Under the pieces are notes generated by a model. That model was not told where the DNA came from and did no database searches. It saw nothing but the letters and a program-made list of their open reading frames with translations. 57,578 nucleotides of DNA from an uncultured Pelagibacteraceae bacterium (GTDB lineage: Bacteria > Pseudomonadota > Alphaproteobacteria > Pelagibacterales > Pelagibacteraceae): positions 1 through 57,578 of the forward strand of contig CACELK010000010.1 in NCBI GenBank assembly GCA_902560245.1, in the 5' to 3' direction. Shown here in pieces: positions 33,849 to 34,382 of the stretch. How positions within the stretch are numbered: position 1 is the stretch's first letter; each line of letters starts with the position of its first letter. A program made the translations under genes and the position numbers.

Positions 33849-34295
33849 TTATTTAATTTCTATAAGTTTTTTCTTTTTATATTCGGGCACTATTCTTTCA
33901 CAGGCTATTGTCAAAAGACCATCTTTTAGTTCAGCACCACCCACCTTTACATCATCTGCAATTGTGAATGATCTCGCAAATTGTCTTTGAGAAATGCCTT
34001 TATGAATAATTTCACCGTCTTCATTTTTATTATCTGATTTATTAATATGCTTTGTTCTAACAGTTAATAAATTGTCTTCAAACTCGACCTCAACATCTTT
34101 TTTATTAAAACCAGCAAGAGCAACTTCGATAGAATATTTATCTTTTCCAGTTTTTCTAATGTTGTATGGTGGATAGTTTGATTGCATAGTTAGCCCTCCG
34201 TTACCCAACATATTTTCAAATTGATCAAACATATCGTCAAAACCAATTGAAAACGGTCTTAGAGAGTTAAATATTGATAGATCCTTACTTGTCAT
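33849..34295 (-). CDS. Small heat shock protein Hsp20 (IbpA-like)
   Basis: An ATP-independent holdase of 148 residues. The alpha-crystallin domain runs from YPPYNIRKTGKDKYSIEVALAGFNKKDVEVEFEDNLLTVRTK to DGLLTIACERIVPE, with the I-x-I/V-like tail motif (RIVPE). The N-terminus MTSKDLSIFNSLRPFSIGFDDMFDQFENML is typical of proteobacterial IbpA-type proteins. The ATG at 34295 is decided by an AGGAGG six bases upstream. The gene is preceded by an RpoH-type promoter and by a leader that pairs this AGGAGG, so both transcription and translation seem heat-controlled. Confidence 0.95.
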   Translation of the reverse strand: MTSKDLSIFNSLRPFSIGFDDMFDQFENMLGNGGLTMQSNYPPYNIRKTGKDKYSIEVALAGFNKKDVEVEFEDNLLTVRTKHINKSDNKNEDGEIIHKGISQRQFARSFTIADDVKVGGAELKDGLLTIACERIVPEYKKKKLIEIK

Positions 34296-34300
34296 ATTAT

Positions 34301-34346
34301 CCTCCTTTGTTAGCAAGGTTATTTACAAGCCCCATTAGGCGACTTG
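34301..34346 (-). promoter_or_regulatory. Predicted ROSE-type RNA thermometer in the hsp20 leader
   Basis: The leader folds into two hairpins on the minus strand. Hairpin I (34346-34326) pairs CAAGUCGCC with GGGGCUUG around a UAAU loop, with one bulged G. Hairpin II (34318-34301) pairs CCUUGCU with the Shine-Dalgarno AGGAGG around an AACAA loop, leaving the G of UUGCU unpaired or in a non-canonical pair. This UYGCU anti-SD with the extra G opposite AGGA is the defining feature of ROSE elements, which hide the SD of small heat shock genes at low temperature. The AUG lies five bases beyond the SD. The fold was done by eye. Confidence 0.8.
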
Positions 34347-34353
34347 CTTACTT

Positions 34354-34382
34354 TAAATGGGTATTATTTTTTTTTTTTCAAT
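34354..34382 (-). promoter_or_regulatory. Predicted RpoH (sigma32) promoter of hsp20
   Basis: On the minus strand ATTG (34382-34379), then 17 bases (mostly A), then CCCATTT (34361-34355). This fits the alphaproteobacterial RpoH pattern CTTG-N17/18-CYTATNT with one mismatch in each box. The start point would fall near 34347, exactly where the first leader hairpin begins. Confidence 0.68.

Follow-up and report, generated by a model that had tools for sequence, protein, structure and literature searches.

A probable ROSE-type RNA thermometer in the leader of the SAR11 hsp20 gene

Introduction

Does the short leader of hsp20 in SAR11 bacteria sense temperature, and if so, by which kind of element? 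ROSE elements are RNA thermometers whose established mechanism is the melting of a hairpin that holds the Shine–Dalgarno (SD) sequence, and the leader of E. coli ibpA is a studied example (PMC3669281). An earlier note on the DNA analysed here, which comes from an uncultured Pelagibacteraceae bacterium, proposed that a streamlined marine organism carries a minimal, two-hairpin ROSE thermometer behind an RpoH promoter, and knew of no such element described in its group. In the open-licence literature, no gene-level description of an RNA thermometer in Pelagibacter/SAR11 was recognised. A 2019 paper speaks of "a possible RNA thermometer" in SAR11 HIMB5, with gene and structure not given in its main text as far as accessible (PMC6429828); this may be the same locus as the hsp20 leader. 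The main text of PMC2704228 has no mention of hsp, heat shock, ibpA or chaperon, and RNA thermometers come up only in general terms in the available part of PMC2864753.

Loci and comparisons

The window is the whole stretch of 57,578 nucleotides that was analysed. It was compared with a SAR11 set of 111 loci—80 from Pelagibacteraceae, 30 further loci of the family (own genome included), and L001. The set is partly redundant, as L001 and L082 both correspond to the window and some other loci come from the same genome. At least 100 nt of upstream sequence is present for 109 loci (L006 and L063 were dropped as too short), and leaving out the duplicate L082 gives the 108 leaders of the geometry counts. 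The set holds 95 unique leaders and 88 unique hairpin stretches. Alignment A1 comprises 52 of these 88 stretches, the 36 dropped being mostly close repeats, and served to build a covariance model of the leader. For a class-level comparison, 40 hsp20 leaders were hand-picked from about 150, one per other alphaproteobacterial family, with the highest-scoring ones left out.

Architecture of the locus and its promoter

The features of the locus are collected in Table 1. On the minus strand, from 34381 to 34281, TTGAAA and CCCATTT stand 14 nt apart and are followed by a stem-loop. A short spacer rich in A leads on to CCUUGCU, which a loop of 5 nt separates from AGGAGG, and the AUG comes last; re-reading this strand bore out the coordinates of the earlier note.

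Table 1. Features of the hsp20 locus in the window
Feature	Position	Strand	Basis
RpoH-like −35 element TTGAAA	34376..34381	−	TTGAA[AT] in 109/109 leaders
RpoH-like −10 element CCCATTT	34355..34361	−	position and relatives
Hairpin I: seven pairs, bulged G (34340), two C-G pairs, 4-nt loop (34337-34334)	34325..34347	−	folding and covariation
Anti-SD strand CCUUGCU with ROSE UYGCU motif, extra G = G34314	34312..34318	−	sequence and relatives
SD AGGAGG, 3' strand of hairpin II	34301..34306	−	sequence and relatives
hsp20 coding region, 148 aa, AUG 34295-34293	33849..34295	−	HSP20 Pfam PF00011, E 2e-17
AGUAAGG, codons 3-5 of hsp20, seven-base alternative anti-SD partner with one G-U pair	34283..34289	−	folding and relatives

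Taken by itself, the window does not make the case. The motif TTGCT-N3-10-AGGAG occurs once in its 57.6 kb against 0.76 occurrences expected by chance, and the fold of the leader is not exceptional (z = −1.46); window-only statistics were hence rejected as proof of an element. Across relatives, the arrangement is beyond chance by sequence comparison: TTGCT, AAGGAG, and TTGAA[AT] are all present in 109 of 109 leaders, a simple pattern for hairpin I fits 104 of these, and CUUGCU precedes AGGAG by 5–9 nt in 108 of 108. UUGCU might also have had a coding role, the window ORF being extended in frame to a TTG; this was rejected, since the frame shifts among relatives through indels that lie between UUGCU and AUG.

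The promoter is RpoH-like, i.e., of the sigma-32 type, as judged by its match to the consensus. Its geometry in relatives supports the RpoH-type promoter that the earlier note had placed before hsp20: the spacer between the −35 and −10 elements measures 14 nt in 103 of 108 leaders, with CCCATAT (41 leaders) and ACCATAT (30) among the variants of the −10 element. The start of hairpin I lies 7 nt past the end of the −10 box in 100 of 108 leaders, and this fixed spacing implies that hairpin I starts about at the expected transcription start—as had been suggested for the 5' end of the mRNA.

Hairpin I

Hairpin I, first placed at 34346-34326, forms as described and gains one outer G-U pair (34347-34325). 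It covaries among SAR11 leaders. In alignment A1, 97.9% of its cells are paired, compared with 90.1 ± 0.7% after shuffling and 26–60% when the strands are slid against each other; 30 cells are changed on both sides versus 7.1 in shuffled alignments, and five of the nine pairs are doubly changed. This comparison establishes hairpin I as a genuine helix. In the leader of E. coli ibpA (L163, NC_000913.3), the same shape is predicted for the first hairpin, with a bulged G and a YGCC-loop-GGG arrangement, and the structure line of the Rfam family ROSE_3 leaves a G unpaired at the place of the bulged G. The bulged-G hairpin common to E. coli ibpA and SAR11 possibly represents a module conserved in ROSE leaders that serves binding or folding.

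Hairpin II

As the earlier note described, CCUUGCU faces AGGAGG around a five-base loop (AACAA, 34311-34307) with one extra G. UUGCU and the SD can pair in the canonical ROSE register (U-A, C-G, extra G, U.G, U-A, C-G), with a G.G-mismatch register being about equally stable in the folding model. Within SAR11, hairpin II shows no compensatory change: 94.6% of its cells are paired, which equals the shuffled value (slid versions, 62–81%), and RNAalifold of the SAR11 leaders omits this hairpin. This absence of covariation follows from the near invariance of the UUGCU and SD strands.

The expected covariation of hairpin II, absent inside SAR11, is found for homologous hairpins across Alphaproteobacteria. 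UYGCU lies near the SD in 31 of the 40 class leaders. In these 31, the lower stem—four pairs below the core—forms 106 of 124 possible pairs (85%) versus a maximum of 66% in 1000 permutations, a comparison that somewhat favours the observed pairing since the SD register was picked for most pairs. On average, they pair 7.4 of 8 positions in the extra-G register, which was likewise chosen by fit. At 25 °C, the segment folds with a median energy of −4.8 kcal/mol in 88 SAR11 leaders, −4.4 kcal/mol in 58 further leaders of the family, and −10.1 kcal/mol in the 31 class leaders (L279, whose start was misread, was left out of the class energies). Judged by sequence, SAR11 hairpin II keeps the core, mostly without the lower stem of its relatives, and is in this sense the stripped form that had been proposed.

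Relation to known ROSE elements

Rfam gave no match at gathering level in the window, in 20 SAR11 relatives, or in 16 loci from the class search. The search of the Rfam ROSE models proposed along with the earlier note thus returned nothing at this score, and yet RF02523 (ROSE_3), the closest Rfam family, matches the window end to end (model positions 1-69, 14.2 bits, E 0.91 over 4227 families). In the 20 other SAR11 leaders, ROSE_3 provides the only matches with E < 1—in five leaders, all at full length, with a best E of 0.013—and the other 15 have none below E 10 among the matches listed. As a positive control, E. coli ibpA matches ROSE_2 (RF01832). The gathering score is a curated threshold and not a defining feature of the ROSE mechanism. 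Among 19 other alphaproteobacterial hsp20 leaders (between L195 and L231), none reaches it with the Rfam ROSE models, in spite of UYGCU in 18; this marks the models as narrow and points to a coverage gap.

The SAR11 leader shares with ROSE_3 the two hairpins, the bulged G in hairpin I, and a GCU anti-SD facing the SD, but scores 14–27 bits where the gathering score is 43. With E. coli ibpA, it has in common the shape of hairpin I including the bulged G, and an anti-SD (UCGCU in E. coli) that faces AGGAG; the E. coli leader is longer, bears extra sequence between the hairpins, and has an SD hairpin that is more stable in RNAfold. The short ROSE-like leaders of Pseudomonas ibpA, 61-62 nt long, consist of two hairpins, stand under sigma-32 control, and have been shown to be temperature-responsive (PMC3669281). 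They resemble the SAR11 leader in the two hairpins, the U(U/C)GCU anti-SD, sigma-32, and the small heat shock gene. The SAR11 leader, a candidate by sequence, differs from them in having a partner for its anti-SD within the ORF.

We class the SAR11 leader as a ROSE element on the ground of the end-to-end ROSE_3 matches and the known two-hairpin ROSE of Pseudomonas. It carries UYGCU facing the SD, a register that allows an unpaired G, a stable 5' hairpin, a sigma-32-type promoter, and a small heat shock gene. The ROSE identity put forward in the earlier note is supported by comparison, namely by the end-to-end match to ROSE_3, UYGCU in 31 of 40 class leaders, and the covarying hairpin I. From such sequence evidence, the leader in the 5' UTR of hsp20 is probably a ROSE-type RNA thermometer, and it is very probably a ROSE relative that has changed little across the group and represents a small and weak form. 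Two-hairpin ROSE under sigma-32 is not new in itself, being already known from Pseudomonas (PMC3669281). What appears new is a hairpin II without the lower stem of its relatives, and an anti-SD with a second, more stable partner predicted in invariant codons of hsp20.

Distribution across genomes

Of the 297 genomes of the family, 219 match the leader model at E 0.1 and 214 contain a match to hsp20. The leader model is also matched by 212 of these 214, although for close kin a match is to some extent built in, as the model was made from family members; the exceptions, G252 and G020, have no leader match even at E 0.2. Adjacency of element and gene in the family was compared by eye and only for places present in both match tables. 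In seven genomes, the element is matched but hsp20 is not; six of these matches are weak (E 0.016–0.076), and the seventh, in G055, lies where the contig breaks off within the first part of hsp20. The own genome contains a single strong leader match (E 7e-15). Further copies there were rejected, with nothing better than E 0.87 and 2.3, and the inspected secondary matches in other SAR11 genomes—without UUGCU, or at or in unrelated genes—were taken as chance.

A blind search of the class found 29 places in 28 of 385 genomes at E 0.1. Eighteen of the 29 lie directly before hsp20, 13 of these outside the SAR11 family, which bears out the position before hsp20; one precedes rpoH and ten lie elsewhere, at E 0.0019–0.099.

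The match before rpoH (L123, E 2.6e-4) is a separate observation. It lies upstream of the gene in an alphaproteobacterial family, f91, with genomes of 0.9–1.8 Mb. The rpoH leaders of this family (L123 and L323-L346; e.g., G664:C25:43710-43777) show UYGCU facing AAAGGA and a covarying lower stem. UYGCU stands near the SD in 21 of 24 (one of the 21, L338, is without a stem by eye), and the remaining three bear UAGCU or UGGCU at the same place. In alignment A2 (23 of the 24, L338 dropped), 97.3% of the cells of the SD hairpin are paired versus 93.2% after shuffling, with nine double changes versus 2.5; in the count of pair types, the leaders do not exceed the shuffles (137 of 500). Before rpoH of SAR11 and its neighbours in the order, UYGCU was found in 0 of 15 loci (L347-L361), which by eye have no clear SD, as if leaderless. 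A search of the open-licence literature found no title or abstract describing a ROSE-like thermometer on rpoH. If true, such a thermometer on sigma-32 would, going by these sequences, be a notable variant.

Possible repression by Hsp20 itself

Instead of or alongside thermosensing, the leader might act as a protein operator: Hsp20 would bind the apex of hairpin I together with hairpin II and repress translation until titrated by unfolded protein. The precedent is E. coli IbpA, which represses its own translation through the 5' UTR and for which R93 is essential and the positive charge of K98 is needed (PMC10474464). Equivalents of R93, Y34, and R97 are present in all 112 SAR11 Hsp20 rows (111 loci plus the window), R93 and Y34 are also kept in 15 of 15 more distant homologues, and the bulged-G shape of hairpin I is as in E. 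coli. The position of K98, on the other hand, is Ser in 112 of 112 SAR11 rows. By this analogy, feedback of Hsp20 on its own leader is possible, and we hold the operator reading to be a tentative one that is less probable than not.

Predicted folding and a possible second partner for the anti-SD

The temperature series in RNAfold suggested with the earlier note yields no thermosensing through UUGCU in nearest-neighbour models. With 12 nt of ORF included, the mean SD pairing of the 88 unique leaders at 15 °C is 0.43, versus 0.58 with the upstream part shuffled, and it exceeds the leader's own shuffled mean in 24 of the 88, the window among these. From 5 to 45 °C, the mean falls from 0.44 to 0.41, and the value for the window from 0.77 to 0.60. 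With 30 nt of ORF, the four middle SD bases of the window change from about 0.97–0.99 paired at 5 °C to 0.2–0.25 at 45 °C, mostly by loss of pairs with the coding region and not of UUGCU pairs. The E. coli ibpA control also stays closed up to 45 °C; hence, ROSE melting is judged poorly by the model, and the RNAfold curves were set aside as proof of thermosensing. One cause for the missing UUGCU melting in the model is unexpected and had not been seen in the earlier note: codons 3-4 of hsp20 compete with the SD for the anti-SD.

These codons, AGU AAG, are complementary to CUUGCU of the anti-SD, and when the alternatives are forced, the helix with the ORF is favoured by about 2.6–5.3 kcal/mol between 5 and 37 °C. 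In 100 unique SAR11 coding sequences (of 111; those not of 148 codons or repeated were dropped), codons 2-4, ACA AGT AAG (window 34292-34284), are invariant at the nucleotide level. Use of a single codon at 99% is reached by only seven of the 107 hsp20 codons with a conserved amino acid, codons 2-4 included. The invariance of codons 2-4 stands against the codon usage in the hsp20 genes of the SAR11 set, where AAA encodes 76% of Lys and AGT 16% of Ser. A control gene, weak in this role because the amino acids of its codons 2-3 are not conserved, reaches 99% at two of 83 codons with a conserved amino acid, codon 4 being one of the two. AGTAAG also occurs in 36 of 40 further leaders of the family; three have GGTAAG and one AGTAGG (S-to-G or K-to-R), with the pairing kept via G-U.

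The leader might hence be a switch and not a zipper: on warming or ligand binding, the anti-SD would move from the SD (closed) to AGUAAG in codons 3-4, and the SD would be released. Both the invariance of codons 2-4 and the G-U exchanges in the further leaders fit this reading, as does the predicted shift in the 88 leaders from 5 to 45 °C, in which anti-SD–SD pairing drops from 0.49 to 0.25 and anti-SD–ORF pairing rises from 0.47 to 0.89. However, the ORF helix is favoured in the model in the cold as well, and a loop that encloses SD and AUG might equally be repressive. ACA is equally invariant, yet outside the helix, and the native codons rank a median 10th of 96 synonymous choices, never among the top three (30 of 88 leaders). 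Moreover, AGTAAG is absent from all 18 readable starts of other SAR11 clades (g5, g7, g8, g9, and parts of g3, g6, and g12; 20 loci, of which L292 and L279 are not readable). A switch is thus rather unlikely, and the predicted codon pairing is taken as a putative clade-specific second layer, which may be a switch. Somewhat more doubtful is the combination in which, in the main Pelagibacter clade, SD and AGU AAG would share the anti-SD in a bistable ROSE with a low set point, temperature and perhaps Hsp20 setting the partner. That only the RpoH promoter is regulated, with hairpin I stabilising the mRNA and UUGCU being incidental, is very improbable: the strongly conserved promoter geometry and the weak predicted folding of hairpin II would fit, but UUGCU is invariant although the leader spacers vary, and homologous hairpins covary throughout the class.

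Proposed mechanism and meaning

For the ROSE-type thermometer as the preferred reading, the following sequence of events may be envisaged. On heat or unfolded protein, RpoH would make hsp20 mRNA, of which hairpin I would fold first and protect or isolate the 5' end. As long as the sea is at its normal temperature, hairpin II would hold the ribosome-binding region closed—in the main Pelagibacter clade possibly together with the competing helix that the anti-SD may form with codons 3-5—and warming would open this region, so that Hsp20 is made. The stability predicted for hairpin II, about half that of other Alphaproteobacteria, would suit a low set point.

The ROSE models of Rfam do not pick up the alphaproteobacterial leaders tried here; the comparison also suggests that ROSE set points are perhaps tuned by loss of the lower stem. 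SAR11 bacteria are described as the most abundant marine planktonic heterotrophs, bearing few transcriptional regulators (PMC13198564). With its conserved candidate for an RNA heat sensor, their hsp20 would provide a direct handle on the response of these bacteria to warming.
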